Of a stretch of 58,118 bases of DNA, positions 3,002 through 42,706 are shown in pieces (position 1 is the stretch's first letter; each line of letters begins with the position of its first letter). Origin of the DNA: a virus; the IMG/VR virus record IMGVR_UViG_3300023272_000003, positions 1 to 58,118 of that record; one strand, written 5' to 3'. The position numbers and the translations under genes are program-made. Under the pieces are notes generated by a model that was not told where the DNA came from, did not search any database, and was given only the letters and a program-made list of their open reading frames with translations.

Positions 3002-3283
3002 ATGACTACTCTTCACCCGTTTGCAATCAACACCCGCGTTGTCCGCACTACTTCCGGCGATTCCTGCGGATACATCGGCATCGTCATCGACCAGGACGGT
3101 GACAGGGTTCGCGTCCAGTGGGACGCTACACACTGCCACCCGAAGGGCGTCAAGACCTGGGTGAAGTTCACGGAGGTTGACTTCGAGACAGAGGTCCTGG
3201 TCGCGGACTGTAACACCCGCAGGGCTGAGTTTCTCCAGAGGCGGGCAGCGAAGTGGTCGAAGCCTCGTTTCAGTTATCGCTGA
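3002..3283 (+). CDS. Small protein, SH3-like fold suspected
   Basis: A 93-residue protein of unknown function, first gene of a rightward transcription unit with its own consensus promoter. Residues 20-60 alternate Gly-rich turns and beta strands (GYIGIVIDQDGDRVRVQW, then KTWVKFTEVDF), which is suggestive of a small SH3 or KOW-like barrel. Twenty bases around its ribosome site and start (2986-3005) are identical to those of the gene at 7459, although the proteins are unrelated. Confidence 0.75.
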   Translation: MTTLHPFAINTRVVRTTSGDSCGYIGIVIDQDGDRVRVQWDATHCHPKGVKTWVKFTEVDFETEVLVADCNTRRAEFLQRRAAKWSKPRFSYR

Positions 3284-6217: not shown

Positions 6218-7369
6218 TTGAATACATCTTACCACAGCAATACTGTTACGTCAACAGTAGACGTTTCCCTAGTTTGTCGGCCCCTGCGCCGCACCCTCTC
6301 GTTTATCGCCTCCCTGACGCGCCGTCGCGGCTACTGCTATGCCGGATGGGACTTTCTCGCGTCGAAGCTCGAATGCTCCACCAAGACCGTACGCCGTCAT
6401 GTGGCGCGCCTGATCGCCTCCGGTATCCTGCGTGTCGAGCAGATCCGCAACCTGCAGCCCCGGTTTTTTATTTGCCCTGAAAGTGTCTGGAATGTGGGCA
6501 CTGTTTGTCCCGATTCTGTCCCTGCTCTTCCTATAGAGGGAGAAGTGAAGCAGAAAAGCAACAAACAGCCAGGGCGCAAGCGCACCCCTGCGCCGATCAC
6601 CGCCCAGGCCGAAGCATCTCCTGTTGTTTGTTCTTCGGCAAAGCCTCTTGAGACGGAGAAACCCCAAGCGGTTGAGACGGTCTCTGTCGTTGAGACGGAA
6701 ACCCAAATTGGCATCACGCACCTATCTGCCATTTCTGCCCAAGAGGAGACTGCCGAGGACGTGGCGGCACTCCTGCGGGCATCGTTGGACGCCGCAGGAG
6801 AGGAGATGCAGGCTTTGGAGAGTGGTGAGAGCCTGGAAGAGAGTGCGGCCGTTTACTGCAATAAAGAGAATTCAGAGGCAATTATAACGGCCGCAACTCA
6901 CAATATAGCCCCGGCCGCTGTCGAAAACATGACGGCCGCTGTACCGGCGCTGCAAGTACGGCCGTATTCTGACACTCCTCCAAAGCCCCAACCCCAGCCG
7001 CTCACGCCGGAACAGACCGCCATCATGCAGGCGCTGGTGCAGGCCGGGGTAGCGCCAGGACAGGCCCGCCAGATGGTTCAGCGTGACGCCACGAAGGCGC
7101 AGGAGGTGATGAAAGCCTATCGGGCCGAGGTACAGCGGGGGCGGGAGATCGAGAGCGCTGGTGGCTGGATCTGGAGCCTATGGAACCGGGAGGGGTTTCG
7201 GTACGTGGAGCGGGGGCAGAAGGCCGCGCCGTCCCACCTCGCGAAAGACCAGGGGTTGCGGATCGTGCCGACGGGCACGGGAGACCGCGGGGCAGCGCCG
7301 CCCGCCAGCGGGGCAGAGGTCTTGGCGGCCCTGCGGCGACGGGGCTTTGGCACGAGCGCCAGGGCGTGA
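6218..7369 (+). CDS. Replication initiator-like protein
   Basis: A 383-residue protein starting with TTG after AAAGGCGG. Residues about 35-95 form a winged helix (WDFLASKLECSTKTVRRHVARL) of the type found in RepA and DnaD-like initiators. A long Glu/Ala/Pro-rich linker (about 110-265) follows. A helical C-terminal domain ends in GGWIWSLWNREGF, resembling the C-terminus of phage and plasmid initiators. Five CGGCCG repeats lie in the DNA encoding the linker (6846-6964), the arrangement known from lambda O, where the origin lies in the initiator gene. A role in origin binding and helicase loading is inferred. Confidence 0.7.
   Translation: MNTSYHSNTVTSTVDVSLVCRPLRRTLSFIASLTRRRGYCYAGWDFLASKLECSTKTVRRHVARLIASGILRVEQIRNLQPRFFICPESVWNVGTVCPDSVPALPIEGEVKQKSNKQPGRKRTPAPITAQAEASPVVCSSAKPLETEKPQAVETVSVVETETQIGITHLSAISAQEETAEDVAALLRASLDAAGEEMQALESGESLEESAAVYCNKENSEAIITAATHNIAPAAVENMTAAVPALQVRPYSDTPPKPQPQPLTPEQTAIMQALVQAGVAPGQARQMVQRDATKAQEVMKAYRAEVQRGREIESAGGWIWSLWNREGFRYVERGQKAAPSHLAKDQGLRIVPTGTGDRGAAPPASGAEVLAALRRRGFGTSARA
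6846..6964. other. Candidate replication origin with CGGCCG repeats
   Basis: CGGCCG at 6846, 6888, 6912, 6933 and 6959, with intervals of 42, 24, 21 and 26 bases (near helical-turn multiples). The second to fourth copies share the extension CGGCCGC, and copies three and four share CGGCCGCTGT. An AT-rich segment lies between the first and third copies. The site is inside the initiator gene. Confidence 0.55.
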
Positions 7370-9748: not shown

Positions 9749-9778
9749 TAGACACGGCCTAACGATAGGGGGTATAAT
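9749..9778 (+). promoter_or_regulatory. Rightward promoter with operator in spacer
   Basis: TAGACA (9749-9754), 18 bases, TATAAT (9773-9778), driving the HNH gene at 9807. The spacer holds the second operator-like repeat. Confidence 0.65.
9757..9770. repeat. Operator-like repeat GCCTAACGATAGGG, copy 2
   Basis: Exact copy of 9724-9737, 33 bases away in the same orientation. Each of the two divergent promoters carries one copy in its spacer, which fits coordinate repression. Confidence 0.65.
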
Positions 9779-9806: not shown

Positions 9807-10604
9807 GTGGAAGATCAACCTATTAAGCCTTACCAGAAATCATTCCCATGTCATAAAAATCGCTATGGTGCTATATGCCCATCCTGTTCCTATTCGATGT
9901 ACCTGCCGAAATTTTATCAAGGTGGATATATTTGTGGTAGTTGCTACAGCACGATAAAGAAGACAGAGAGGCAGCAAAAACACCAGGAGCGCAAACAAGA
10001 GCGTGAGGCTGAGCGCCGTCGTATTGAGGCAAGTCGGCAATCTGCATTACAACGCAAGATGGAGAAGGAACAGGAATCTGCTCGTTATCGGGAGGAGAGG
10101 GAAAACAGGCGGGAAGCAAATCGAATAGCACGACAGAGGTATAGAGAAATGTCTGCCACTGAGAGGCTGCGCGTAAGCGAGATTACCGCCGCTAAAAAGT
10201 TAGAAGAATTGCAATCAAAGCCAATCAACCAGCCAAAGCCCGAACCCACTTTGCTTGAAACATGGGCGCGTAAATGGGCTGTCCAAAGCAAGATAAAACG
10301 GCGGAATGAAAAGACTCCTATTCCATCAGGCTCGAAGCCGATAACCCCGGAATACCTGATGGAACTATGGGAGAAGCAAAAAGGTACATGTGCCCTTTCG
10401 GGTCGTCCTATGTCTCTTGTGAGGCCAGAAGGTGAAGGGACTTTTCAATCTTCTTTGGTCTCCGTAGACAGAATAGATAGCATGGTGGGCTACTGCCAAG
10501 AGAATATTCAACTGGTATGTTTAGCCGCCAACGTAATGAAAGCCAATACAGGCCTAACCGACTTCAAAGAGTGGTGCCGAAGCATAGCAAAGAGCGGGGA
10601 ATAA
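9807..10604 (+). CDS. HNH-type (DRID) endonuclease with zinc ribbon
   Basis: A 265-residue protein read from GTG, six bases after AAGGAG. An N-terminal zinc ribbon (CPSCSY...CGSC, residues 24-46) is followed by a long, highly charged coiled coil (about 50-155). The C-terminal nuclease-like domain holds CALSGRPMSL, then SVDRIDSMVGYCQENIQLVC and NVMK. This is the DRID-GY-N-LVC signature of the HNH family variants seen in phage homing enzymes, with Asp-Arg in place of the usual leading His. Own promoter and divergent neighbour suggest a free-standing selfish or DNA-processing gene. Confidence 0.75.
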   Translation: MEDQPIKPYQKSFPCHKNRYGAICPSCSYSMYLPKFYQGGYICGSCYSTIKKTERQQKHQERKQEREAERRRIEASRQSALQRKMEKEQESARYREERENRREANRIARQRYREMSATERLRVSEITAAKKLEELQSKPINQPKPEPTLLETWARKWAVQSKIKRRNEKTPIPSGSKPITPEYLMELWEKQKGTCALSGRPMSLVRPEGEGTFQSSLVSVDRIDSMVGYCQENIQLVCLAANVMKANTGLTDFKEWCRSIAKSGE

Positions 10605-10711
10605 ATTTTGCCCGGTGGCCGGAAGGCTGAAAAATGTTGGAGGTAAAGTAAATATTTTACGTTGCGATGTGGTATACTATAGAGGAGAGAACAAAAACAG
10701 GAGGGGCAAAA

Positions 10712-11299
10712 ATGGAACAGTTAAGCGAGTTGCCGAAAGGCGTTTGGGGCTGTGCTATGTGCGATATGGTATGCGCCGGGGAACTTGCGGTGGAAGCGTT
10801 CGGGGAAGTCGCGCGCGCAAAGGATTCAGGACTACCGCTGTTTACTTATATGTACCGGCGATTCGGGCCACCGTGGAGCGGTTCAGACGATCATAAAGAG
10901 GTTGCGTCTTACAAACTCACTACCTCCGACCCTCGCATATTTCTGGATGTTTCCATTAAGGGCTATGCGTTGGATTTCTGTTTCCGCTTCCTTATTACGA
11001 AGGAACTCCAAGACGAGTATTCTGCCTACATGGATCACAGGATATCCCAGGTCGGCCACAGGGAAGGCAGAGAGCCTAGAGCATGGCGCGAAGGCTCCCC
11101 GATTCGACAGCACGTCAACGAAGTGCTCATAGAGGCTATGAAAGAGCTTCTAAGGCCCGTGTGGGTTCGTGACATCCCTATGAACATCTTAGGACTTGTG
11201 GAAGAGGAGGACGCAGAGGACTCCGTCGAACCGTCCATCTATGCAGGCTACGGAGTACCCAAAGAGGCTATGGACGCACGCATTAAGGAGTTTGCCTGA
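10712..11299 (+). CDS. Hypothetical protein
   Basis: A 195-residue protein, starting at the ATG after AGGAGGGG. It contains CAMCDMVC near the N-terminus, a central region with alternating hydrophobic residues (PRIFLDVSIKGYALDFCFRF) and a very acidic C-terminus (VEEEDAEDSVEPS). No family is recognised. Its stop overlaps the next start by one base. Confidence 0.75.
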   Translation: MEQLSELPKGVWGCAMCDMVCAGELAVEAFGEVARAKDSGLPLFTYMYRRFGPPWSGSDDHKEVASYKLTTSDPRIFLDVSIKGYALDFCFRFLITKELQDEYSAYMDHRISQVGHREGREPRAWREGSPIRQHVNEVLIEAMKELLRPVWVRDIPMNILGLVEEEDAEDSVEPSIYAGYGVPKEAMDARIKEFA

Positions 11300-11586
11300 T
11301 GTCTCCCAGTAAGGCGCAGGTAGGGCCGGAAATCAAATGCCGGTGCTGTGGCGGCACCGGCAAGATTCGCCTCCCTGTTGGGCAGTGGCGGGTCTACTCA
11401 CTGGTACAGCAGGGCTACCAGACCGCAAGCGAGATTTTCCAGCAGATCGAAGGACAGGAAGACATAGAGCAGAAGGCCGTCAGCATGAGGCTCAAGGCTC
11501 TGTTCGATGCAGGCCTGCTGATCCGCCACGACCAAAAGCGGGGCCGCCAATGGGTCTACGGGCTGGCGGCGAAGGAGGGGGAGTAA
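11299..11586 (+). CDS. Winged-helix protein with Cys knuckle
   Basis: A 95-residue protein. CRCCGGTGKIRLP (residues 14-26) is a glycine-rich Cys cluster of the DnaJ/zinc type. Residues 30-90 fit a winged helix (helix YQTASEIFQQI, recognition helix AVSMRLKALFDAGLL, wing HDQKRGRQWVYGL). Probably a DNA-binding regulator in this rightward operon. Confidence 0.7.
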   Translation: MSPSKAQVGPEIKCRCCGGTGKIRLPVGQWRVYSLVQQGYQTASEIFQQIEGQEDIEQKAVSMRLKALFDAGLLIRHDQKRGRQWVYGLAAKEGE

Positions 11587-11587
11587 G

Positions 11588-11851
11588 ATGACAACCAGGA
11601 CAGATTTACCGCGGTTCGAGTGCTCGTTGGTGGGGCAGGACGACACGCTGTGCCCAATCTTTGCAGTAGATGAGCAACAGGCGGCAGAGGATTTTGTTTG
11701 CAATTGGGAGTGGCGCGCGTGCGAATTCACTGTTGCGTCAGGACAGAGGACCGTTCGGGTGCGGGTGAATGGCCGTGTGTTCGAGGTTAGCGGGGAAGCG
11801 GTTCCGAGTTACCGGGCGCGGCCTCTGTCGGCGCAAGAGCAGGAGGCTTAG
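11588..11851 (+). CDS. Small hypothetical protein
   Basis: An 87-residue protein with an ATG two bases after the upstream stop and the ribosome site GGAGGGGGAG. Beta-rich in the middle (FTVASGQRTVRVRVNGRVFEV). Resembles small phage proteins that are translated in series; function unknown. Confidence 0.7.
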   Translation: MTTRTDLPRFECSLVGQDDTLCPIFAVDEQQAAEDFVCNWEWRACEFTVASGQRTVRVRVNGRVFEVSGEAVPSYRARPLSAQEQEA

Positions 11852-11853
11852 AG

Positions 11854-11997
11854 ATGGCAAGCGAAACCGAGTGTCAGTGGCTGGAGCGCCGCGCAGCTGA
11901 GATTGAGGCCGAGGCCGCGTGGGTGGCCCGGATGCAGGAGCAGGAATTCCTGGCGGGGCTGTGGTCGGAGGTGTTTCCAGAGGCGGAGGAGGGGTAG
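11854..11997 (+). CDS. Very small helical protein
   Basis: A 47-residue frame between two tightly packed genes: ATG two bases after the previous stop, SD AGGAGG, and the next ATG one base after its stop. Nearly all residues suit one amphipathic helix (ERRAAEIEAEAAWVARMQEQ), with an acidic end. The packing makes it likely to be expressed. Confidence 0.65.
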   Translation: MASETECQWLERRAAEIEAEAAWVARMQEQEFLAGLWSEVFPEAEEG

Positions 11998-11998
11998 G

Positions 11999-12718
11999 AT
12001 GAGTATTGAGACGACAGAGCGCAAACCCCGGTTGCAGTGGGGTGATGGGCAGTATTCAGTCTACCAAGCCTCTGAGGTGCCTGCATACGAAATGACGGTC
12101 TTCTACCGGGCAGGCGAATGGCGGTTGGAGATCAGAGGAGCCGACAAGGGCAACTATCCTGATCGCACGTCGGCCCAGATCGCGGCAGAGTCCTGGCTGC
12201 GGGAGGAGATCCGGCGCGTGGGGGCGCTTTTGGGCGAAGGAGAGGAGGGTGAGAAGCCTCAGGCGTTCAAGGATGCTTTTAAGTTCAACATCCTTGTCAG
12301 AGGTGAGGCGCAGGCCTGCTTCCGTGCCTACAATGCCGAGGAGGATGAAGACGGGCAGAAAGTTTCCGGCGAAGAACTTCACGGCATCAGTGCAGATGAT
12401 CCTGACGACGAATTCAGCCAGTATTTCGATTGTGCGATGGAAGGGCTAGGTGTCTACCAAGGCTGGATGCGCTTCGAGTTTGCAGGCGAAAAACTCTGGA
12501 CTATCACAGAATATCAGGCGATGTCGGCACTCTCGGAGGAGGAATTGAAGGCTCTTGCACTCTTTACGCAGGGACAATGGTCGGACGGTATCGGCGAGGG
12601 ATTCGAGCAAAAGCGATGCCTCAACTTCAGCGGCGGCAGCTTCTCTGTTTCCCCTTATGCGGACAGGCAGAACCTTACCATTAGTCAGTGCGGAGTAACA
12701 TGGGAGATCACGCCATGA
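11999..12718 (+). CDS. Hypothetical protein
   Basis: A 239-residue protein from the ATG after GGAGGAGGGG. Mixed alpha/beta with an acidic middle (EEDEDGQKVSGEE), no membrane segment, no known motif. The start of the next gene overlaps its stop (ATGA). It is the largest unknown of the rightward operon. Confidence 0.75.
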   Translation: MSIETTERKPRLQWGDGQYSVYQASEVPAYEMTVFYRAGEWRLEIRGADKGNYPDRTSAQIAAESWLREEIRRVGALLGEGEEGEKPQAFKDAFKFNILVRGEAQACFRAYNAEEDEDGQKVSGEELHGISADDPDDEFSQYFDCAMEGLGVYQGWMRFEFAGEKLWTITEYQAMSALSEEELKALALFTQGQWSDGIGEGFEQKRCLNFSGGSFSVSPYADRQNLTISQCGVTWEITP

Positions 12719-13068
12719 GCAACGAGACGACGGCCCCCACGCGGCCCACCGACCAGGAGATCAACGCCCTCTGCGCCACGCTGTGCGGCTACCAAGTATT
12801 TGCTGACGACGCGCCCATTATGTTACAGGCGATGTCCTGCATACGGCAGAGCGAATGCCCTGACTTCTGCGGCAGTCGGCAACCATCGGCTGAGTGGCTT
12901 CTGCCGATGGTTGCCGAAGACGACAGGGCAGAATTTGTGCGGTATTTGTGGCGATCAGTGGACGTGCGGGACGTGTGGGCCTGCATGACATCCACGCCGC
13001 GCCAGCAAGTAGAGGCAGTGCTGCGGACATTGGGCAAGTGGCCTGCGGAGTGGGAGGAGAGCAGATGA
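12715..13068 (+). CDS. Hypothetical protein
   Basis: A 117-residue acidic protein coupled by ATGA on both sides. It contains INALCATLCGYQV and SVDVRDVWACM; four to five Cys but no regular zinc spacing. No family is recognised. Confidence 0.7.
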   Translation: MSNETTAPTRPTDQEINALCATLCGYQVFADDAPIMLQAMSCIRQSECPDFCGSRQPSAEWLLPMVAEDDRAEFVRYLWRSVDVRDVWACMTSTPRQQVEAVLRTLGKWPAEWEESR

Positions 13069-13664
13069 GTGAGGAGAGAGCGCCGTACGGGGAGCAGGAG
13101 GCACGCAAGCATCAGGTCTTTATGATTTCAGGTGATGCATATTACGGGCGGGAGATTGAGTGTGCCTGCGGTCAAGATTTCAACGATGAAGGCAGATTCA
13201 ACACCCACCAGCAAGAAGAGATAGACGCCTTGATTCAGCAAGCCGAGCAGCGCGGGCGGGAGGCACTGCTTTCAGAGATGGTTGAGGCGCATTTGCAGAA
13301 GTCCGTCGATGTACCAGACGATGAAAGGGATTGGGTACAGCAGGTTATGCGCCTGCTGTACGTCAACTTTGACGGTTTTATTACTGCTGCCGTCAAAGGG
13401 CAAAAGGCGTCTTTTGAGCGCGGACGGGAGGCGGGGTTGCGGGAGGCGCTGGAGTCTGTACGGCAGTTAGGGATTGAGATGGAGGATCTCAGGAAGGTTT
13501 CCCCTTTCACCTCCGACGCATGGTATGAGTATAACGCCAAGGTGAACACTGCTAAGGGAGCATATCAGCGCATCACCGCCCTGCTGCCCGCCACACTGCC
13601 CGGTGCGGAGACGGAGGAGAGACGAAGTCTACGAAAAAATAGAGCAACTGAAGAAACTCATTGA
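13065..13664 (+). CDS. Protein with N-terminal Cys-Cys-His finger
   Basis: A 199-residue protein. Residues 30-50 (ECACGQDFNDEGRFNTHQQEE) look like a half zinc finger of CxC...H type, common in small phage proteins. The remainder is helical with an acidic repeat of heptads. The next gene starts inside its 3' end. Nucleic-acid or protein binding is a guess. Confidence 0.7.
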   Translation: MSEERAPYGEQEARKHQVFMISGDAYYGREIECACGQDFNDEGRFNTHQQEEIDALIQQAEQRGREALLSEMVEAHLQKSVDVPDDERDWVQQVMRLLYVNFDGFITAAVKGQKASFERGREAGLREALESVRQLGIEMEDLRKVSPFTSDAWYEYNAKVNTAKGAYQRITALLPATLPGAETEERRSLRKNRATEETH

Positions 13665-13878
13665 AAGCCTGAGCGGGAAGCCTTGGGCCGAAATCGAATT
13701 CCTGTACGTGAATCACTACATGGACGATCCGCGCTGGTCTTCGACGAGCATTTACCCGCCCGGCAAGATCCACACGGGTACGACGATCACGATAGAATGC
13801 ACGACCACCTACGCGGAAGGCGAGTTGCCTCCAATGCGAGATGACACTGCCCCTCACGGCACCGCAGGCAGCTCGTAG
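13603..13878 (+). CDS. Small hypothetical protein at the start of the interleaved region
   Basis: A 91-residue frame from GTG at 13603, overlapping the previous gene by 62 bases. N-terminal helix DEVYEKIEQLKKLIESL, then a beta-rich part. Its 3' end overlaps that of the leftward endolysin gene by 25 bases. No ribosome site is evident before the GTG, so the start is uncertain. Confidence 0.55.
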   Translation: MRRRRRDEVYEKIEQLKKLIESLSGKPWAEIEFLYVNHYMDDPRWSSTSIYPPGKIHTGTTITIECTTTYAEGELPPMRDDTAPHGTAGSS

Positions 13879-14291
13879 CAGTCCGTGATGATGTTGCGAC
13901 GGTTCTGCCAGGGCTGAGAGTTGACGCCCTTGCCTGAGCTGCACTCGTAGGTGCGGCCCATGTAGACCAGGACCACATGCCCGATGCCGCCCTGTGGCCG
14001 CTTGAAGCCGATAAAGAGCCGGTGTGGATCGTGGGCGGCAAATTCCACATCGGAGAACTTCGCGAGTTTATGGAAGCCCTGCTGCGCGCACCATTCGTTC
14101 TGGGTGGCGCTCCCGTCCGGCAGGCGCAACCCGGCCCGATCGAGGCACCACCGGACCCAGCCAGAACAGTCTGCTGTCGTGAAAGTGCTGCTGTCCGCGC
14201 CGAGGGTGGGCTTGGAACCGTAGAGGTACCGCACCCGCCCGGCGGTGTGGTCGTAGCACGTTTTGAACATCGAGATAGACGCTTTAGACAT
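13854..14291 (-). CDS. NlpC/P60-like endolysin
   Basis: A 145-residue protein. TADCSGWVRWCL (Cys42) and GGIGHVVLVYMG (His105) form the catalytic Cys and His of the NlpC/P60 or CHAP-like papain fold, which cuts peptide bonds or amide links in peptidoglycan. No signal peptide is present, so release would need the holin encoded at 14446. The ATG at 14291 has SD AAGGAG, which lies in the same 13 bases that hold the ribosome site of the divergent gene at 14307. An older in-frame ATG further upstream lacks a ribosome site. Confidence 0.8.
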   Translation of the reverse strand: MSKASISMFKTCYDHTAGRVRYLYGSKPTLGADSSTFTTADCSGWVRWCLDRAGLRLPDGSATQNEWCAQQGFHKLAKFSDVEFAAHDPHRLFIGFKRPQGGIGHVVLVYMGRTYECSSGKGVNSQPWQNRRNIITDCYELPAVP

Positions 14292-14306
14292 CCGAGGAGG
14301 CTCCTT

Positions 14307-14477
14307 ATGCTTATACCAATTCCCCCAAAGGAAGAATGGCCGGAACATATTCGAGAGATCAATGAGCGGTGGGATCGTTGGATCGCCGCCGCCGATGCCC
14401 GCAAGGCGAGAGAGGCAGAAGAGGCAGCAAAAGCAGAAAGCGCTCCTACCCCTGCTCCGTCGGCGGATCGGGAATAG
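14307..14477 (+). CDS. Small rightward protein between lysis genes
   Basis: A 56-residue protein with SD GAGGAGG six bases before the ATG. Pro-rich start (LIPIPPKEEW), a charged helix (REINERWDRWIAAADARKAREAEEAAK) described here only in part, and an Ala/Pro tail. Its start lies 15 bases from that of the leftward endolysin, and its end overlaps the holin gene by 32 bases. The good ribosome site supports it. Confidence 0.6.
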   Translation: MLIPIPPKEEWPEHIREINERWDRWIAAADARKAREAEEAAKAESAPTPAPSADRE

Positions 14478-14718
14478 CCTGCTGTGCCGCCCTGCGCCGC
14501 GTGTCCTGCCGCTGCTGGTTCATCGTGTCGAGGTCAGGCGCAATGCGGCTCTGGAGGGCCTTGAGGCCAACGGACACGCCGGTAATCAGGGCGGCGTTCC
14601 GGCTGTGGGACTCGCTGTAGGCGGCAAACCCACCCAGAAGGCCGGAGATCAGGACATCCAGCGCGATGCGGAAGACGGCCTGCCGGCTGATGGGCGGGTC
14701 GGGTAGGCGTGAGTTCAA
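14446..14718 (-). CDS. Holin-like membrane protein
   Basis: A 90-residue protein read from TTG with SD AGGAG. One or two membrane segments (about residues 16-36, FRIALDVLISGLLGGFAAY, and 43-55, ALITGVSVGLKAL) and a charged C-terminus rich in Arg and Gln fit a small class II holin. It sits one gene upstream of the endolysin on the same strand, with a rightward gene between them. Confidence 0.7.
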   Translation of the reverse strand: MNSRLPDPPISRQAVFRIALDVLISGLLGGFAAYSESHSRNAALITGVSVGLKALQSRIAPDLDTMNQQRQDTRRRAAQQAIPDPPTEQG

Positions 14719-14745
14719 GGGGCGAGGCTCCTAGAGAGGGTTGAT

Positions 14746-15144
14746 ATGATGTGTCAGACGATAGAACAGGCGACGCGCCGTCTTGCAGAGTGCGAAGAGT
14801 TGGAGCGCATTGCGGCACTGAACTTTGCAGAGACGCAACGCAGAACACAACAAGCGAGAGAGAATCTGCGCTTATTGCAGGCGAAGCATAAACTCGAACA
14901 GGCCAAGTCTGCCGGGCAGAGCGATCTACCTATTTGCCGTCAGTGCTTTCAGCATGCACTTATCAGCATCATAGTAGTCGAAATGGATAGACAAGGGCGC
15001 ATTGACCAAATGACCAAAGAACAGATGCTCAACGGTGAATGGTACTGCGCCGCTTGCAGATGGCGCGGACGGCCTCACCCGCGCTTGACCGAAGAGGCAG
15101 AGACACTTACGGCCCCACCGGAGGCGTCAGACTCGCCGCGCTGA
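14746..15144 (+). CDS. Coiled-coil protein with Cys motifs
   Basis: A 132-residue protein with SD GAGAGGG. Residues 5-60 form a long charged helix (RRLAECEELERIAALNF). ICRQCFQHA and WYCAACRWRG give two CxxC pairs, a likely zinc ribbon. It starts 28 bases from the holin start and its end overlaps the leftward gene 15107-15502 by 38 bases. Confidence 0.7.
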   Translation: MMCQTIEQATRRLAECEELERIAALNFAETQRRTQQARENLRLLQAKHKLEQAKSAGQSDLPICRQCFQHALISIIVVEMDRQGRIDQMTKEQMLNGEWYCAACRWRGRPHPRLTEEAETLTAPPEASDSPR

Positions 15145-15502
15145 TAATGATCGGCTCTGCGATGGCGCAGTTGACCTCCCGCGCTCCGGTGGCGGTTCCG
15201 GTCGGCTGAGACAGCAGGGCAGAGTTCAGGGCAGTATTGAGCGTGGAGAGCGCCGCCGCGAGGGTCGCGTTCGTGGCCGCCTCTGACTGCACGGCTGTGT
15301 TCGACAGCACCGCATCCAGCGCCAGACACATAGGCCGGAACTGTGCCGAGCCGCTTGGGCTGTCGTTCAGAATGTCGATTATGTTCGTGGGGGCGGTGTC
15401 GCGGCGGGAACGTTTCGACGCCGCAGCGGGGCGCAGGAGGGCAAGGAAGCCCACCAGGGAAGCGAACAGGGCAGAACGGCGTGTAAGGGTGTTGCGTGAC
15501 AA
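15107..15502 (-). CDS. Probable exported protein in lysis region
   Basis: A 131-residue protein read from TTG, nine bases after AGGAG. The N-terminus (TRRSALFASLVGFLALLRPAAA) has twin Arg, a hydrophobic core and an AxA-like site, a Sec or Tat signal. The mature part is Ala/Thr/Ser-rich with a long run of small residues. An outer-layer or spanin-like role is possible but not shown by sequence. Confidence 0.65.
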   Translation of the reverse strand: MSRNTLTRRSALFASLVGFLALLRPAAASKRSRRDTAPTNIIDILNDSPSGSAQFRPMCLALDAVLSNTAVQSEAATNATLAAALSTLNTALNSALLSQPTGTATGAREVNCAIAEPIIISAASLTPPVGP

Positions 15503-15532
15503 TGCGTGTTTCTCCTATCGAAAGGGGTTGTG

Positions 15533-15805
15533 ATGAACTGGAAAAGGTTTAGCGACGAGATGCCGCCGCCGTGCGAAGTAAACGAAGTGCAGTGGCTGGT
15601 GACATACTCCGAAGAGTCGGGCTATCGGCTGTCGAAGCGCAAGGGCGATACCGTCAAGATTGGTGAGTATGACTACTTCCTCGATGACGAAGAGGATATT
15701 GCAGGCGTCTGGTGGTGCCTCCTGACCAATCCCGAAACAGGACAGCCCGCAATGGGAGGAGGCCGCCGAATCGATTGGCAAGTGCCAGAAGGAACCACCC
15801 CATGA
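15533..15805 (+). CDS. Small rightward hypothetical protein
   Basis: A 90-residue protein with SD GAAAGGGG. It has the look of small phage proteins with repeated W/Y and acidic turns (WLVTYSEESGYRLSKRKGD, GEYDYFLDDEED). Coupled to the next gene by ATGA. Its start is 31 bases from that of the leftward exported protein. Confidence 0.75.
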   Translation: MNWKRFSDEMPPPCEVNEVQWLVTYSEESGYRLSKRKGDTVKIGEYDYFLDDEEDIAGVWWCLLTNPETGQPAMGGGRRIDWQVPEGTTP

Positions 15806-16110
15806 GCAAAATGACGCCGGAAGAGCGGGCGCGCCGAATCGAGTTTGACTATGGCGTTTCGGAGGAAGACTTTGCGCGAGTCGCCGCCGCGATCCGTGAG
15901 GCCGTAGCGGAGGCGTATGAGACATGCGCTAATATTGCCCGGAAAGAAAGATGGGACTTTTGCGCCCAAAACATGACAACACGGGAAGGATCGATGTTCG
16001 AGCAGGCATGGGCAGAAGCCGCAAAATCTATAGAAGAGGATATTTGCGCCCTTCAAGACGCCCTCACCGCCGCCCCGTTACCTCCCGCACAGGACCGCCC
16101 AGAAGGCTGA
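15802..16110 (+). CDS. Small helical hypothetical protein
   Basis: A 102-residue protein starting in an ATGA overlap. Helical throughout (FARVAAAIREAVAEAYE, EQAWAEAAKSIEEDICAL). Its 3' end overlaps that of the leftward membrane protein 16064-16246 by 47 bases. No family is recognised. Confidence 0.7.
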   Translation: MSKMTPEERARRIEFDYGVSEEDFARVAAAIREAVAEAYETCANIARKERWDFCAQNMTTREGSMFEQAWAEAAKSIEEDICALQDALTAAPLPPAQDRPEG

Positions 16111-16246
16111 TAACGAGGTCTAGACGGTCATACAGGCCCCGGAGGACAAGCCCGCAGAGGATCGCCCCCAGGACAATACCCAACACCATGCGGGTTATCT
16201 CCAGGCTGAGTCGCTCCTGCTCCTCCGGTGGGGCAGGGGCGCTCAA
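16064..16246 (-). CDS. Small membrane protein of lysis cassette
   Basis: A 60-residue protein with one membrane segment at about residues 20-37 (MVLGIVLGAILCGLVLRG) and a second short hydrophobic stretch (LVISLLGG). It overlaps the upstream gene by ATGA. Size and topology suit a holin, antiholin or lysis regulator. Confidence 0.7.
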   Translation of the reverse strand: MSAPAPPEEQERLSLEITRMVLGIVLGAILCGLVLRGLYDRLDLVISLLGGPVREVTGRR

Positions 16247-16737
16247 TGGCCGACCTGCCGCGAGAACGCCAGCAGGACGCTCACCACGACGCCCAGGACC
16301 GCGAAGGCACTGACGGCGATACCCCAGAGGGAGGAGGCCCCCACGCCCCTTCCCTCTGTTTTGTCCATGCGGGACGAATGGGTCTGGAGAGTGTCCTTGA
16401 CGGCATCAAACTCTGATTTCGTGGCAAAGTTCTTCTCCCGGTCGTACATGGCAGCACGCCACTCGTTGTTCGCCTCCCGCCAACGCTCGATTTCTACAGC
16501 GCTCTTGTCAATGGCTTTCTCGCTCGACTTCAGGGCCGCCTCTACGGCCTTCTCTGCCGCCTGGAGCTGCGAGTGGTGCAGTACTGCCATGTCGGCAATC
16601 CGCTGCTCAAACAGGCGCTCAAGGGCCTCTATGCGGAGGATAAACTGTTTCTCAAGTTCCGCCACGACACGGCGGGTATAGACGTGTTCCGTCTGGGGAG
16701 TCCACCCCGCGAGGTGTTCCGGCAATTCATCTGGCAT
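16243..16737 (-). CDS. Coiled-coil protein with C-terminal membrane anchor
   Basis: A 164-residue protein. Residues 20-115 are a long coiled coil (LEKQFILRIEALERLFEQRI, AEKAVEAALKSSEKAI) and residues about 136-158 a membrane segment (LWGIAVSAFAVLGVVVSVLL). Tail-anchored coiled-coil proteins of this form are common beside phage holins. Overlaps its upstream neighbour by 11 bases. Confidence 0.75.
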   Translation of the reverse strand: MPDELPEHLAGWTPQTEHVYTRRVVAELEKQFILRIEALERLFEQRIADMAVLHHSQLQAAEKAVEAALKSSEKAIDKSAVEIERWREANNEWRAAMYDREKNFATKSEFDAVKDTLQTHSSRMDKTEGRGVGASSLWGIAVSAFAVLGVVVSVLLAFSRQVGH

Positions 16738-16900
16738 GGTGTTCCCCTACGTAAACAAACTGTTGAGGTCTGAGGTGCAACTCCAGATGGTCCCGTACGT
16801 TGAGCGTCTTTCCAAACCATGTGGCTGCCATCATCAGGCACAGAAGACATAGGAGAAAAAGGGCCAAGAAAAGACCATTGTAACTCTCTTTAGCGTTCAT
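16727..16900 (-). CDS. Small membrane protein
   Basis: A 57-residue protein with SD AGGAGA before the ATG at 16900. One strong membrane segment (about residues 9-30, GLFLALFLLCLLCLMMAATW) and a short His-rich tail. It overlaps the genes on both sides. Candidate holin or holin inhibitor. Confidence 0.7.
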   Translation of the reverse strand: MNAKESYNGLFLALFLLCLLCLMMAATWFGKTLNVRDHLELHLRPQQFVYVGEHHAR

Positions 16901-17408
16901 CAGGTCTCCTATTACGCCGGAACTCATCCACGGCATTTTCCAGACGATCAGCGGTCTTGCTGAGACTATCGGCAGCGACTTTCTGCCTCGCGATTTCGAT
17001 CTGTGACTGTTCCACCGTCTGACCGAGCTCCTTGTTGCTCGTTATGGCGGCATCGACCTTTTTATCAATCCCATGCACGTACTGCGTGAGGTGGTCGATG
17101 CGGGCGTTCATCAGCGCCTGATAAGCGATGTTCTGCTCGTGCCACTGGGTACGCTCTGTCCGCTGGTCCCACTCGAATTTCGCGAAGGGGATCACCAACA
17201 CGGACAGAATCAGGGTAGCAACCTGCCACGTGTTGCCGCGAAACCACTTCTCGATAGAGCGATTGGCCTGCTGCAATGCCGTGAGGGGCCGACGCCTGCC
17301 GTGTGGGTGATCCTCTGGCTCTTCTTCTTCAGGCTCTTGCGGCTCTTCGTCATCCCGCTCCTCATCCGGTTCCGTCGGCTCCTCTTCGGCACGATGATGG
17401 TTGGTCAT
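16890..17408 (-). CDS. Acidic membrane-anchored coiled-coil protein
   Basis: A 172-residue protein in three parts: about 35 mainly acidic residues rich in Glu, Asp and Pro; a membrane segment at 61-77 (WQVATLILSVLVIPFAK); then a coiled coil to the C-terminus (HGIDKKVDAAITSNKELG). Together with its neighbours it forms a run of five membrane proteins. Perhaps a spanin-like or membrane-organising factor. Confidence 0.7.
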   Translation of the reverse strand: MTNHHRAEEEPTEPDEERDDEEPQEPEEEEPEDHPHGRRRPLTALQQANRSIEKWFRGNTWQVATLILSVLVIPFAKFEWDQRTERTQWHEQNIAYQALMNARIDHLTQYVHGIDKKVDAAITSNKELGQTVEQSQIEIARQKVAADSLSKTADRLENAVDEFRRNRRPDER

Positions 17409-17647
17409 TTCGGCACCTGTCCTTTCTCGTCGCGGAGTAAGGGAATCAATGTCTCTAACTTGGCTTCAATGCGCCCTGATGCAATCAAGGTCGCCTGCTG
17501 GCTGCTCTGGATGTCCTTGCACATCTTTTCGGTGCGGTCGTTCTGGAGGCTGTTATTCAGGCACCAGAGGCAGAAAAACAACACAATGAGGATAACCTGC
17601 GAACGCGTGACAGGTTGCTTTCCCCAACTGGCGGAACCCTGTGTCAA
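17405..17647 (-). CDS. Small membrane protein, first gene of leftward membrane cassette
   Basis: An 80-residue protein read from TTG at 17647. One membrane segment at 18-34 (VILIVLFFCLWCLNNSL), then a helix with KMCKDIQSSQQATLI. The ribosome site GGGAGAAG lies in a hairpin (17654-17671). Coupled to the next gene by ATGA. Confidence 0.65.
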   Translation of the reverse strand: MTQGSASWGKQPVTRSQVILIVLFFCLWCLNNSLQNDRTEKMCKDIQSSQQATLIASGRIEAKLETLIPLLRDEKGQVPK

Positions 17648-17653
17648 AATACT

Positions 17654-17671
17654 TCTCCCGCCGTCGGGAGG
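17654..17671 (-). promoter_or_regulatory. Hairpin masking a ribosome site
   Basis: CTCCCG and CGGGAG pair (6 bp plus a G-T) around four bases. On the minus strand the 3' arm is the GGGAG of the ribosome site for the TTG at 17647, so folding would hide it. Confidence 0.5.
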
Positions 17672-17716
17672 AATCCGGGCTATCTGCCGCGAACACCCTG
17701 CCCGGACAGCTCGCTA

Positions 17717-17726
17717 CTAACGATAG
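17717..17726. repeat. Operator core CTAACGATAG, copy 3
   Basis: Same ten bases as the core of the repeats at 9724-9737 and 9757-9770, again in an interval between divergent genes. Confidence 0.5.
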
Positions 17727-17781
17727 CTGGCCTGTCTGCCGGGGAAGGCGCTTTGATCGCTAACCCCGGCACTGAATCACC

Positions 17782-17810
17782 AGGGGCCGGGACAGATTGT
17801 CCCGGCCCCT
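17782..17810. terminator. 13-bp GC-rich hairpin
   Basis: AGGGGCCGGGACA and its exact complement around a GAT loop. No T-run follows on either strand. It may end leftward or rightward read-through between the divergent units, or be a protein-binding site. It resembles the hairpin at 8911-8934 in sequence (GCCGGGACAG). Confidence 0.6.
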
Positions 17811-17866
17811 CCCTTTGCGTCACGAAACTATTTTCAAAATTCCCTCCTGTTTGGCCTCATCTACTG

Positions 17867-17895
17867 TTGACATTATAGCGGCTATAGTGTACAAT
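17867..17895 (+). promoter_or_regulatory. Sigma-70 type promoter
   Basis: TTGACA (17867-17872), 17 bases, TACAAT (17890-17895), driving 17954. It shares CTACTGTTGAC at the -35 with the leftward promoter at 9716-9745. Confidence 0.85.
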
Positions 17896-17953
17896 AAGGG
17901 TGTAAGATCCAATAAGGAACTTACTCATCTACCCGACAGGAGAAGAGACGAAA

Positions 17954-18241
17954 ATGATTATCACCATCTGCGAATTCAAGGGCAACTTTCTCGGCAACAG
18001 CGACGGCGAGGGTATTGATCTGGAGAAGTCCATTGCGAACTATCAGACACAGGTAGAGGCCCGGATTGAGCGCATAGAACCGGGGACGTCTGTAGCGTGG
18101 GACTTCCGCAACGGTGAGGGCGATCCTGACCGATATTTTTCCGCCGAGGGTTTTGACGACGAAGACAGCATTCAGGGCGACGTCAACCATATCCGGGAGC
18201 AGGTTTTTGCGGAGGGCACCTTCTGGGCGTTCACGAACTAG
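17954..18241 (+). CDS. Small acidic hypothetical protein
   Basis: A 95-residue protein with SD AGGAGAAGAG. Beta-rich and acidic (GEGDPDRYFSAEGFDDEDS). Own promoter and own terminator (18255-18285). Not recognised; the isolated unit suggests expression independent of the main operons. Confidence 0.8.
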   Translation: MIITICEFKGNFLGNSDGEGIDLEKSIANYQTQVEARIERIEPGTSVAWDFRNGEGDPDRYFSAEGFDDEDSIQGDVNHIREQVFAEGTFWAFTN

Positions 18242-18254
18242 CCCAAAAGAAACA

Positions 18255-18285
18255 GGGCGCAGAGTGGTCGAATCACTCTGCGCCC
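18255..18285 (+). terminator. 12-bp hairpin terminator
   Basis: GGGCGCAGAGTG and its exact complement around seven bases, 14 bases after the stop at 18241. Strong GC stem, no T-run. Confidence 0.7.
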
Positions 18286-18367
18286 TCCCCGACAGGGGTA
18301 AAGCATTGTACCACCACAGGCTTACCGGATGCCCGTTCCCGGCACATTTTTACCAGAGAGGCAAGGC

Positions 18368-18589
18368 ATGACGAACCCACAGACCCTAAGCGACGTTATG
18401 CGCGAACTCGCGCAACGCTCTACGCCCGAAACTCGCGCGGCCCGAAGTCAGAATGCCGCCACGGCACGTGCCGCCCGGAAGCCACCGAAGCCATGCACGT
18501 GCGGACAATCGCCCCACGTCAGCAGATGTCCTGTCTATTGGCGAGAGCGGCAGGCAGAGCGGCGGCGGAAGTCGGCTAAACCTTCCTAA
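18368..18589 (+). CDS. GGRP/Cys-His small basic protein, copy D
   Basis: A 73-residue basic protein with ribosome site AGAGGCAAGG. Here the GGRP block is reduced (ARAARKPPKP) but CTCGQSPHVSRCPVYWRER keeps CxC, five residues, H, three residues, C, and the CPVY of copy A, then a basic tail. It is downstream of the promoter that shares its -35 motif with copy C. Its end overlaps the first leftward structural gene by 14 bases. Confidence 0.75.
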   Translation: MTNPQTLSDVMRELAQRSTPETRAARSQNAATARAARKPPKPCTCGQSPHVSRCPVYWRERQAERRRKSAKPS

Positions 18590-19001
18590 CGCGGATTTTC
18601 CGAAGGGGCGGAACCTTCCTGATCGGGATAGTACGCGTCCCCGGAGAACTCCCGGCACCCCACGCGCCGCCCTCCACGACCGCCACGGCAATGCCTGTAA
18701 CGCACTCCGTCAGGGTCGGGTCATAGTAGACATCCAGATGGATAGAGGCATCGATGTAGGCCTCATTTGCCGCCAGGGTGCTACTGAGGTCGTCCATGTA
18801 GGCAGCATCGAAAGTCCACTCTGCTCCCGTGCCGCCCATGTCGGGAGGCGCTTCGACGCTGAACGCTATCTCCATGCAGGCCGATCCGCCTCCACCGCCA
18901 TCCATTTCCGCACCCCACTCTGCTGGTTTGCTCACCGTCAATACCTCCGTCGGGTCGCCGAGTACGAATGTCTCCGCCCGTAGTGTGTCGTGGCCCCGCA
19001 T
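18576..19001 (-). CDS. Putative structural protein, end of late operon
   Basis: A 141-residue protein with AAGGAG four bases before the ATG. Glycine-rich centre (GGGGGS), few Lys until a very basic C-terminus. It is the last leftward gene of the tail region and probably a virion component, by position only. Confidence 0.65.
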   Translation of the reverse strand: MRGHDTLRAETFVLGDPTEVLTVSKPAEWGAEMDGGGGGSACMEIAFSVEAPPDMGGTGAEWTFDAAYMDDLSSTLAANEAYIDASIHLDVYYDPTLTECVTGIAVAVVEGGAWGAGSSPGTRTIPIRKVPPLRKIRVRKV

Positions 19002-29244: not shown

Positions 29245-29322
29245 GGGTTCCTGATCTCAAAAGAGGGATTCGGCTCTGCGCTCTCGAAAATGCCGGGTAT
29301 TCCGCCGCAAGGAGGCTCTTTC

Positions 29323-29805
29323 GTGACTCAGCCCTACAAAATATGCCCACAGTGCCAGGAACCTGCCGCCGTTGCCGCCACGCAGTGCGCCCGATGTGGC
29401 CGCATCTATCGCTCCACGTCACCACAGCAAACACAGGTTTTCGCTAACCCACCAGCACAAGCGCCCGCACCAGCACCCAGAGGCCTGTATTTCGGCGTAG
29501 GTGTCGGCGCGGGCTGCTTATTGGCAATCGGCCTGCTCTGCTTCTTTGTGTGGATGATTTTCTCTGGTGCGCGCTCTCAGGGCGGAACCCAAACCGCGCA
29601 ACTGGCGGCGAAGATGCAGGTTTATATCCCCTGTCGCCCCTATGAGTTTGAAGGCAAGTTCGGCAGGCCGGACAGCATGTCAAATACCAATCGGGACGGC
29701 ATAGAGTTTTACTTTTGGAACTATCGCTGCAAGGACGGCACGGTCACCGTTACGTTCAACAGCACCACCCAATACATAGAGCGAGTCAGCACCGAAGGGC
29801 CATGA
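29323..29805 (+). CDS. Zinc-ribbon membrane protein, moron candidate
   Basis: A 160-residue protein read from GTG after AAGGAGG. Cytoplasmic zinc ribbon (CPQC, CARC; Cys8, 11, 22, 25), Pro/Ala/Gln linker, one membrane segment (about 56-80), and an outer domain of about 80 residues (FEGKFGRPDSMSN, GIEFYFWNYRCKDGTVTV). It reads against the tail operon between the hub and tape measure. Topology fits a host-surface or superinfection-exclusion protein expressed in the lysogen. No clear promoter was found. Confidence 0.75.
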   Translation: MTQPYKICPQCQEPAAVAATQCARCGRIYRSTSPQQTQVFANPPAQAPAPAPRGLYFGVGVGAGCLLAIGLLCFFVWMIFSGARSQGGTQTAQLAAKMQVYIPCRPYEFEGKFGRPDSMSNTNRDGIEFYFWNYRCKDGTVTVTFNSTTQYIERVSTEGP

Positions 29806-38919: not shown

Positions 38920-40407
38920 CTAGGCAGCCTGCTGGGTAGACTTGGTGCCCTGCTGGTTATCAGCACTACCCTGCACAACTACGGGCCGCTTCGCAGACTC
39001 TAAGCGCAATTGTCGCGCTTCCTGCTCGGCGTCTTCTTGGGCTTTGCGCTCCATGTACTCGCTGACCTCGTCTTCTTCCCAACCTTCGCGCTTTAGATAG
39101 AGATCAATGGGGCAGCCTGCTGTTACCGCCGCCTGTGCCGCCTGCCAGAACGCAAGGTTATCTTTGGCAATCTGCGCTTTGTCTGGTCGGCGTGGATCTC
39201 CGAATATCGCCGCTATGTTGGCGTCTTCGTTCAGATTCGCTTTCTGGTAGACGTTCGCGATCTCGGTTGCCCGATGCGCTACCGTCTGCCATGCGGCAGT
39301 AAACTTCTTGATCTGTCGCTGACACTTGCCTACCAGGGGCATCTCAGCGCGACCCAGGGCTTCACCAGAGGGCCAATCGCCTCCCGTGATGCTGTGAAGG
39401 GGTGTGCGGGTCATGCGTGAAACCGCCCGCATCTTCTCATTGTAAACCGCAATGAGTTGCGACATATCACCAGAAGGGAGGACGCCGAACCGCGCTTCAT
39501 TTGTCTCGCTACGGAGTATCTTTCCCGGCCCTATTTCTAATAGTGTCGGGTTGCCATCTTCGTCTCGAACATCACCCATGCCGGTCGCCGTCAGCATCTG
39601 GAATGCCGTCAGACGTGCCGCCGCGCTGATGTCGTACTGCAGGTCATTGATCTGGTCTTGAAAACCAATCACACCGCCTGCAAGCTCCGACACGCCATAA
39701 TTGGCTGGGCCGCGCCCACTGTTGGCAAAATGAATGATAGGGATATGAAGGGGCGAACCGTCTGCTTTCTCCCACGGCTGTATATAGTGCGATTCGCCTG
39801 GAAGAGGATACGGCGAGAACGTCAGGCCGCCCAATGCACCACCACCGCCCTCCGACACATACCGCTCTAGGCGATCCTCGTACCAGACAATACGCCGTGT
39901 CATCACCATGCCATCGATCAGGGCCTGCCAGTCCTTTACGGCATACAGAGGCTCCCCCTGCGCATCGTAGGCGATGAAGACACCGCTTTGCCCGTTCCAC
40001 CAGGGTTCCCGGTGGATACAGACGCGCTCATACTCTTCCGAGTAGGAAAGCGAGACAGCGTAGTTCCCATCACGAAGCGCCGCATAGTGCGTCTCGCCGC
40101 TCTCATCGTCCAGGTTGACCCGCGTCCACCAGTCGTCGAGCCATTCCTGAACGGCAGTGTCTTCGACTTGGAACCGGAGCAACTCCAGCCGGTCTGCGTC
40201 TTCGGCTATGATCTGGTGGCACACGTTGTCGGCAAAGTCGTTGCCCAAGAGCGCCTCAAGCAGCAACTCCTGCTCTGGCGTGAGGGTTCGCAACTGCGCG
40301 CCCAACGCGTACTCCCGATAGGTCTGGATCTTTTTCGCCTGCGTGCGCTCAAAGAACGTGCTACGGTCTATCTCTATCGCTTCGTGATCTGTTTCGATTT
40401 TCGCCAT
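38920..40407 (-). CDS. Portal protein
   Basis: A 495-residue protein between terminase and the head genes. Sequence pattern of SPP1 gp6-like portals: N-terminal region ending FADNVCHQIIAEDADRL, a beta-rich wing, HSITGGDWPSGEALGRAEMPL near the stem and crown, and a Gln/Ala-rich C-terminus. It forms the dodecameric DNA gate. Confidence 0.85.
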   Translation of the reverse strand: MAKIETDHEAIEIDRSTFFERTQAKKIQTYREYALGAQLRTLTPEQELLLEALLGNDFADNVCHQIIAEDADRLELLRFQVEDTAVQEWLDDWWTRVNLDDESGETHYAALRDGNYAVSLSYSEEYERVCIHREPWWNGQSGVFIAYDAQGEPLYAVKDWQALIDGMVMTRRIVWYEDRLERYVSEGGGGALGGLTFSPYPLPGESHYIQPWEKADGSPLHIPIIHFANSGRGPANYGVSELAGGVIGFQDQINDLQYDISAAARLTAFQMLTATGMGDVRDEDGNPTLLEIGPGKILRSETNEARFGVLPSGDMSQLIAVYNEKMRAVSRMTRTPLHSITGGDWPSGEALGRAEMPLVGKCQRQIKKFTAAWQTVAHRATEIANVYQKANLNEDANIAAIFGDPRRPDKAQIAKDNLAFWQAAQAAVTAGCPIDLYLKREGWEEDEVSEYMERKAQEDAEQEARQLRLESAKRPVVVQGSADNQQGTKSTQQAA

Positions 40408-40412
40408 AGAGA

Positions 40413-41783
40413 TTAGTATTCCGACTGCCGCCGCTGCTGCTTCGCCTTTGCGCTTCCGTAGGTGCTGACCGTGACTGTCTTGCTGCCACTCAGTTTATCG
40501 ACATAGGCCACTGCGTACCGCATCGTATCCATGCCGTGGTCGTACTCTTTTACCGGCTCTTCCTTGTTGGGTTTACCGTCAGCACCCTTTGCCCAGAGGT
40601 AGACCTCGAACTCCTGCTCGGTACAGGTTGGCTTCTTCTTATCAAGCAGTTCCTGATCGGGTTCGACCAATGCTCCCTCAAGCAAAAAAATACGGGCTTT
40701 ATTGTCGCCGGCAACCTTGAGCCTCTGTTGTACGGCCTGTATTCCGGGTGAAACTGACTTCCATGCCGCCACGGTCTGGATACCTGCGGCTTTCATCGTC
40801 GCGCGGTCCTCTGCATCATGGTCGGCTATCGTGGCTTCATAGTGCTCATTCCCAGACAGAGCGATAATCTGCTTGGTGAGGTCCGCAACGAGCCGCTGTG
40901 TCTGGTATATCTCCCTGTAGAGATACATCCGGCCATCGGGATCAATAGCCCACCACTGACAGCAGAAAGGGTTCGTGTACCCGAAGTCAATAGACCGGAT
41001 GCGCCGCCACTCTCGCGGTATCTCGAATGGCCGTCGCTTGATATGCAGTGCACGGTCAAACGCTTCGTAAACAGCGCCTTCCGCCTGTACCCACTTGCCG
41101 AGCCGCAAACGCTGATAACGTGAACCGGTCAGGCTGTCCAGAATGGCAAGCGACCGCACTCCCTGCGGGGTGATGTTCCCGGCCTCATCGAACAGCGTAG
41201 GATTGTCTTCGTGCCTGCTCTCCAGCAAGCGCAAGCCTTGCCGCGTCTTGATCCAGTGTGACGGCGGCCCAGGGTTGGCATCTCCAAACATACGCGTGTA
41301 GGGCATCACCGCGCCGCGCCCTGTACAGCGCGTCGTCAGCGTCTCCCAGTCCTCAAGAGTGAATTCCTCTGCCTGATTGACATAGAAGAAATCGCGCTCA
41401 GAAGACAACGCCTTGCCGGGATTGTCCAGGCCGATCACCCAGAGGCGCGAACCGTTCGGGTACTGGAACCACTCCGGCTTTTCGCCCCCATAGGCTTTAA
41501 TTGGGCTGTCGGGGCCGATCACACGAATAAAGGTTTTTATCGCACTTCCGACAAGGGAGGAATAGGTCTTGCGGGCCATAACTCCCTGTGCGCCAGGATA
41601 CTTCCACAACAGAGCGTCGATGTAGTTACAACAGCCCCAGGTCTTGCCGGTTTCGGCTGGGCCTGACACAATGGCTTCAAAGTCGCGAGTCTGCCACAAC
41701 TCCTTAACAGCACCGCGAGGGCAAAAACCTCCGGTCTCTCCCTCGCGCAGTTCTGCTATCTGGTATCGTGCTGTCTGAACCAT
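40413..41783 (-). CDS. terL: Terminase large subunit
   Basis: A 456-residue protein. ATPase: Walker A GPAETGKT (41-48), Walker B region DFFYVNQAEE (131-140). Nuclease: SIDFGYTNP (Asp266), IADHDAEDR (Asp321/323) and a later DHGMDTMRY, the three acidic positions of the RNase H-like nuclease. It packages DNA through the portal. Confidence 0.92.
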   Translation of the reverse strand: MVQTARYQIAELREGETGGFCPRGAVKELWQTRDFEAIVSGPAETGKTWGCCNYIDALLWKYPGAQGVMARKTYSSLVGSAIKTFIRVIGPDSPIKAYGGEKPEWFQYPNGSRLWVIGLDNPGKALSSERDFFYVNQAEEFTLEDWETLTTRCTGRGAVMPYTRMFGDANPGPPSHWIKTRQGLRLLESRHEDNPTLFDEAGNITPQGVRSLAILDSLTGSRYQRLRLGKWVQAEGAVYEAFDRALHIKRRPFEIPREWRRIRSIDFGYTNPFCCQWWAIDPDGRMYLYREIYQTQRLVADLTKQIIALSGNEHYEATIADHDAEDRATMKAAGIQTVAAWKSVSPGIQAVQQRLKVAGDNKARIFLLEGALVEPDQELLDKKKPTCTEQEFEVYLWAKGADGKPNKEEPVKEYDHGMDTMRYAVAYVDKLSGSKTVTVSTYGSAKAKQQRRQSEY

Positions 41784-42670: not shown

Positions 42671-42676
42671 GAAAGC

Positions 42677-42706
42677 AAAAGCCCCCAGCGGTTAGGCGGA
42701 GGGCTT
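42677..42706 (-). terminator. Intrinsic terminator of the leftward early operon
   Basis: On the minus strand AGCCCTC pairs with the GGGGGCT side and TTTTGCTTT follows. It lies about 200 bases beyond the stop at 42914 and separates early genes from the terminase operon. Confidence 0.7.

Follow-up and report, generated by a model that had tools for sequence, protein, structure and literature searches.

Noncontiguous operons, in which genes on the opposite strand separate the genes of one operon so that each mRNA is partly antisense to the other, have been described in Staphylococcus aureus, where co-transcription and reciprocal regulation of the menE-menC-MW1733-ytkD-MW1731 locus were measured and similar arrangements were also seen in other S. 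aureus phages (PMC7154746). In phage 80alpha, noncontiguous operons (tha/ith and others), each with an opposite gene embedded among phage genes, switch between lysogenic and lytic expression (PMC11087260). Further cases of antisense RNA include the Listeria excludon, where a single long overlapping transcript serves both as mRNA and as antisense RNA to a neighbour (PMC7154746), and the antisense RNAs, mostly non-coding or from internal promoters, found over phage genes during infection by the lytic phages phiR1-37 (PMC4848604) and AR9 (PMC5312081). Most known noncontiguous operons contain a single interruption. A repeated form of this arrangement is found in the lysis region of an uncultured bacterial virus, the 58,118-base record IMGVR_UViG_3300023272_000003, the whole of which is referred to as the window and numbered from its first base.

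In a 2.3 kb zone of the window four rightward genes alternate with leftward ones for an NlpC/P60 endolysin, a putative holin and an exported protein. Each of the four convergent pairs shares an overlap at the 3' ends, of 25, 32, 38 and 47 nucleotides (nt), and the divergent starts are separated by 15, 27 and 30 nt, the spacers being occupied by face-to-face Shine-Dalgarno (SD) sites. The interlocked, alternating layout of the lysis region is confirmed. Its elements are as follows, with lengths in amino acids (aa).

13065-13664, +, last uninterrupted gene of the rightward arm, 199 aa
13603-13878, +, open reading frame, 91 aa (GTG start) or 52 aa (ATG at 13720); 25-nt 3' overlap with the endolysin gene
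13854-14291, -, endolysin of the NlpC/P60 family, 145 aa, with DCSG and GH motifs; Pfam PF00877 at 24.3 bits (cut-off 23), and relatives
14292-14306, 15-nt divergent junction CCGAGGAGGCTCCTT, one SD site per strand
14307-14477, +, small gene, 56 aa, the weakest call; 32-nt overlap with the putative holin gene
14446-14718, -, putative holin, 90 aa, TTG start, one predicted transmembrane segment
14719-14745, 27-nt divergent junction, face-to-face SD sites (CTCCT ag AGAGGG)
14746-15144, +, gene for 132 aa with paired CxxC motifs (zinc-ribbon-like); 38-nt overlap with the exported gene
15107-15502, -, exported protein, 131 aa, TTG start; counterpart in the relative G001 (33-34% identity)
15503-15532, 30-nt divergent junction, face-to-face SD sites (CTCCT atcg AAAGGGG)
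15533-15805, +, gene for 90 aa; relative on the far leftward arm of G001 (E 0.0039, Z 9.6)
15802-16110, +, gene for 102 aa; 4-nt overlap with the 15533 gene, 47-nt 3' overlap with a membrane gene
16064-16246, -, membrane gene, 60 aa (TTG) or 41 aa (ATG at 16189)
16243-16737, -, coiled-coil protein with C-terminal transmembrane segment, 164 aa; 61-63% identical in G001
16727-16936, -, membrane gene, 69 aa (57 aa if an inner ATG is the start)
16890-17408, -, coiled-coil/membrane gene, 172 aa
17405-17647, -, first leftward gene of the lysis/membrane cluster, 80 aa, TTG start

The alternation goes on to the right with the genes at 17954-18241 (+) and 18329-18589 (+), the latter overlapping the leftward 18576-19001 by 14 nt.

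With three rightward insertions among the leftward genes of 13854-17647, and the converse for the rightward genes of 13603-16110, opposite-strand genes lie between co-oriented genes in both directions, which bears out the likeness in form to noncontiguous operons drawn in an earlier note on this DNA. The sequence is also compatible with co-transcription, there being neither internal terminators nor consensus promoters. The S. aureus operon, however, holds one opposite gene inside one operon and its co-transcription and reciprocal regulation were measured, whereas in the window two runs are interleaved through four convergent and three divergent junctions and both properties are deduced from sequence. 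The 80alpha case concerns expression that changes between life-cycle stages, but of a lysogeny (cI) operon whose antisense gene is served by a promoter of its own, in contrast to a lysis cluster at the junction of two genome arms with no recognisable internal promoter. As in the excludon, one transcript would serve as mRNA and as antisense RNA to its neighbour, here by repeated interleaving and a predicted overlap of transcripts rather than by a single long one; and while the antisense RNA predicted in the window recalls that of phiR1-37 and AR9, it would consist of the coding mRNA of the other arm. The arrangement in the window differs from the known noncontiguous operons in that both operons are repeatedly interleaved, that they lie in a lysis cluster, and that genes turn over in a persisting layout. 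A literature search, made with narrow terms and incomplete coverage, found no description of lysis genes under antisense control by an interleaved operon.

The gene calls were obtained with a caller built for this analysis, whose codon score was trained on the window's long frames and is combined with terms for length, start codon and SD site. Run blind, it chose 13720 (or 13603)-13878 (+), 13854-14291 (-), 14307-14477 (+), 14446-14718 (-), 14746-15144 (+), 15107-15502 (-), 15533-15805 (+) and 15802-16110 (+), followed by the leftward membrane genes, the start of the first frame being uncertain between the GTG at 13603 and the ATG at 13720. For every zone gene the annotated frame has the top codon score among the six frames over its own interval. 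The genes and coordinates of the opposing alternation, the four convergent overlaps and the tight divergent starts, with spacers too small for promoters, all of which had been claimed in the earlier note, were therefore recovered by independent calls. The lysis gene identities proposed there fared less evenly: the endolysin stands on its PF00877 match, while the holin is a guess from position and one predicted transmembrane segment, with neither a Pfam family above cut-off nor a PHROG match, and several further small membrane proteins are encoded nearby.

That some of the rightward frames are chance open frames in the gaps between leftward genes is very improbable. The gaps were shuffled, and rightward frames starting in the first 40 nt and running past the next leftward stop were counted; such a frame arises in 31% of shuffles for the 56-aa gene at 14307-14477, whose support is accordingly weak, and none of the rightward zone frames matches a PHROGs or Pfam family above cut-off, as chance frames would be expected to behave. 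However, the rate falls to 2% for 14746 and to 0/400 for the two-gene gap 15503-16110, the other frames score well for codon usage, have SD sites and resemble the rightward arm in composition, the gene at 15533 has a significant relative, and removal of the rightward genes would leave the leftward operon with unexplained gaps of 154-561 nt.

The degree to which such an alternation is unusual was estimated by applying the same caller to 97 other viral loci (722 kb, 1,173 called genes). In these controls 6/34 convergent pairs overlap by at least 15 nt and 5/28 divergent pairs start within 35 nt of each other, rates that are if anything overestimates given that a 'cdc' run in control locus L055 is perhaps miscalled, the locus being crowded with overlapping open frames. 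Against these low rates the window presents an unbroken run of seven such tight junctions. On nine related or otherwise fetched contigs the caller returned mainly long one-way runs, so that it does not itself create the alternation.

The genes of the zone fall into two populations. The GC content at 4-fold degenerate sites is 0.62 in the interleaved rightward genes and 0.63 in the rightward arm, versus 0.81 in the interleaved leftward genes (Fisher p 2.5e-5), and the same contrast is found in G001 (0.62 versus about 0.76, p 0.0016). The relative of the 15533 gene is G001rc 46491, on the outer leftward arm, and an interleaved G001 gene, rc 11015, is related to gene 3680 of the rightward arm of G001 (Z 8.0). 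Composition and outer-arm relatives together support the view that the interleaved rightward genes are probably genuine, belong to the early-arm type and were inserted among the lysis genes.

G001 (IMGVR_UViG_3300025949_000002 of IMG/VR, 60,719 bases) is inverted relative to the window, and its positions are given on the reverse complement ('rc'). It is colinear with the window (terminase 77% and large tail protein 60% identical), and its lysis region alternates as well. A rightward gene ending at 10380 overlaps by 20 nt a leftward amidase gene (10361-10894); rightward coding from 10908 to 11576 overlaps by 59 nt a leftward putative holin gene (11518-11883), which is followed by a leftward exported gene to 11902; a rightward gene at 12322-12624 overlaps by 47 nt the leftward gene at 12578, with another leftward gene at 12748-13167; and a rightward helix-turn-helix-like gene (13198-13458) precedes a leftward one (13471-13923). 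The divergent starts are separated by 13, about 27 and 24-30 nt, with face-to-face SD sites at each. The unaided caller recovered part of this alternation, and inspection of the sequence supplied the remaining rightward frames. The rightward gene that comes first after the amidase seems to be divided between different frames (10908-11245), possibly by decay or by a sequencing or assembly error.

At the same place the two colinear phages carry endolysins of different families, NlpC/P60 (window 13854-14291) and Amidase_2 (G001rc 10361-10894), and these unrelated predicted enzymes represent a clean lysis-gene swap. The slot between the holin and exported genes is closed in G001, an extra rightward slot is present further right, and none of the interleaved rightward genes of the window has an ortholog in the same G001 slot; an orthology of 15802 with the rightward genes of the first G001 slot, suggested by eye, was not significant. 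The comparison with related phages proposed in the earlier note thus gave a divided answer, the slots being filled by rightward genes again, but not by orthologs of those in the window. As seen in one distant relative, the predicted layout persists while the genes in it turn over; that the slots are only partly conserved favours turnover by insertion. No DNA relatives and no endolysin relatives were found among 50,697 phage records; the coiled-coil protein or its alignment, searched against viral contigs and bacterial genomes, returned only G001, as did the G001 amidase, and a search with the tail protein for further relatives gave no match. The endolysin relatives G018-G020 lie on contigs that lack the zone.

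By their gene content, the zone is the meeting point of a rightward early-type arm and a leftward late arm of structural and lysis genes. Between 1.5 and 13.9 kb the rightward genes encode, among others, a replication-initiator-like protein (6218-7369) and an HNH endonuclease (9807-10604). Among the leftward genes are those for a helicase (49040-50926), the terminase (40413-41783) and the portal (38920-40407), followed by tail and lysis genes. The following elements flank the zone.

9749-9778, +, last consensus sigma-70 promoter of the rightward arm before the zone, TAGACA-18-TATAAT, 11/12
17648-17953, control region of 306 nt ahead of the lysis cluster, with a highly structured leftward leader (z -3.9)
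17867-17895, +, strong consensus rightward promoter TTGACA-17-TACAAT, its spacer carrying the palindrome TATAGCGGCTATA (17874-17886)
18254-18286, -, strong leftward intrinsic terminator, 13-bp stem with U-rich tail (dG -33.9, z -5.8), parting the structural genes from the lysis cluster

Promoters were scanned with the sigma-70 consensus, from which those of the host may differ. On the + strand, sites matching at least 10/12 positions occur at 2943, 4997, 7400, 8249 and 9749, the last back-to-back with a leftward promoter at 9745-9716, and the next only at 17867. Since rightward promoters stop between 9749 and 17867, the four interleaved rightward genes are left with no good promoter of their own. 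No good consensus promoter was found within the zone on either strand, the best being + 13769-13798 (9/12); over 9.5-19.7 kb as a whole, promoter-like sites number 8 versus 4.1 (sd 2.2) in shuffles. The sequence scan found no terminator-like site at the zone junctions, the convergent ones included.

The reading favoured here, and held to be somewhat more probable than all others taken together, is that the two arms, instead of being ended by a terminator, interdigitate one gene at a time and so constitute mutually interlocked noncontiguous operons. Overlapping mutual antisense transcription is a likely consequence, because the layout is interlocked, its junctions have neither room for promoters nor terminators, and the relative keeps it. 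RNA starting at the 9749 promoter would run antisense through the endolysin, holin and exported genes before arriving at 14307-16110, and RNA entering leftward from the control region at 17.65-18.25 kb would be antisense to the rightward genes. Mutual exclusion would probably follow through polymerase collision, cleavage of RNA duplexes and Rho polarity over untranslated antisense stretches, with the lysis genes kept low while the rightward arm is active and the rightward genes turned off late. The layout would most likely have arisen when compact genes of early type were inserted between lysis genes; an effect on timing would then be a consequence, which may have been selected secondarily.

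Several points weigh against the interlocked-operon reading. The early and late classes come from gene content alone, a leftward consensus promoter for the lysis cluster was looked for and none recognised, the 4-fold-site skew across the leftward genes, as a trace of rightward transcription, is not an outlier, and G001 is the sole relative found to have the zone. Moreover, non-consensus promoters may sit inside neighbouring opposite genes. The statement of the earlier note that each strand must be transcribed through the genes of the other is likely to be correct, but, by taking into account that a promoter could sit inside an opposite neighbour, 'must' is too strong.

Such internal promoters are central to a neutral explanation, considered unlikely, by which small cargo genes were inserted tail-to-tail with weak promoters inside neighbouring genes, the resulting short antisense RNA having no effect. 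It would agree with the small size, poor conservation and replacement between the two phages of the rightward zone genes, with the occurrence of tail-to-tail overlaps of at least 15 nt in the control loci (6/34), and with the failure to recognise a leftward promoter for a single long lysis transcript. It is less easily reconciled with the lack of any good consensus promoter in the zone on either strand, when other stretches of the rightward arm have clear ones, or with the operon-like 4-nt overlap that links 15533 and 15802. If mere packing were the explanation, phages would still be seen to tolerate dense mutual antisense reading at timing-sensitive genes.

Selection may instead maintain the alternation as a dedicated lysis timer, the strong form of the reading in the earlier note, with early rightward RNA silencing holin and endolysin until a late leftward promoter wins. 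Reciprocal antisense switching has been proven in phage 80alpha (PMC11087260), the layout is kept in G001 despite an unrelated endolysin and different rightward genes, and the strong terminator isolates the lysis cluster from the structural genes, so that the cluster could be timed alone. However, slot conservation is not strict: in G001 the holin and exported genes are not separated by a rightward gene, and an additional one occurs further right. The more distant endolysin relatives G018 and G019, for their part, stand among genes that all run one way. The facts used in favour of the timer are equally accounted for if the layout is a by-product of early-gene insertion at the arm junction; the timer itself is possible but rather unlikely. 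More doubtful still is the stronger proposal that the interleaved operons evolved as a multi-step mutual-exclusion switch setting the time of lysis, in which gene order and overlaps would be selected while the small rightward genes are interchangeable. A repeatedly alternating lysis region whose layout outlives its genes would be a clear natural setting in which to ask whether the phage life cycle is timed by antisense transcription.

Two candidate regulatory features were discarded. For a late-promoter motif common to the sequences ahead of the lysis cluster and of the terminase gene of both phages, the best match was no better than shuffled sequence, and for a translation block by the palindromic double SD at 14292-14306 the predicted hairpins were weaker than in shuffles. 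In the control region, the palindrome TATAGCGGCTATA is likely to be a repressor site and the 17867 promoter likely to drive 17954-18241. The same region holds a very stable GC palindrome at 17782-17810 (dG -28.6, z -4.2), and a small hairpin CTCCCGACGGCGGGAG at 17655-17670 (-) spans the SD site of the first lysis-cluster gene (17405-17647). In G001, the gap to the right of the lysis cluster contains the perfect palindromes CCAATTTCTCCACGTGGAGAAATTGG and GAAAATGTATGCATTTGCATACATTTTC at rc 15494-15519 and 15550-15577 (L045, about 3143-3226).

Elsewhere in the window, a likely small non-coding RNA precedes the terminase genes (42640-42845, -), with a TTGCAT-17-TATACT promoter-like site, a structured stretch (z -2.4) and a hairpin that resembles a terminator and carries a U-rich tail, but no Rfam family; the matching gap of G001 has a full-consensus leftward promoter, TTGACA-19-TATAAT. 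A second structured non-coding stretch (42300-42520, -; z -2.7) has a tRNA-like closing stem and a T-arm-like hairpin, with no match in Rfam or by ARAGORN. Finally, a lone rightward gene in the leftward tail region (29290-29805, +), with weak zinc-ribbon matches, is 53% identical in G001 (E 1e-55), where promoters on both strands lie near its counterpart (rc 28299/28323).

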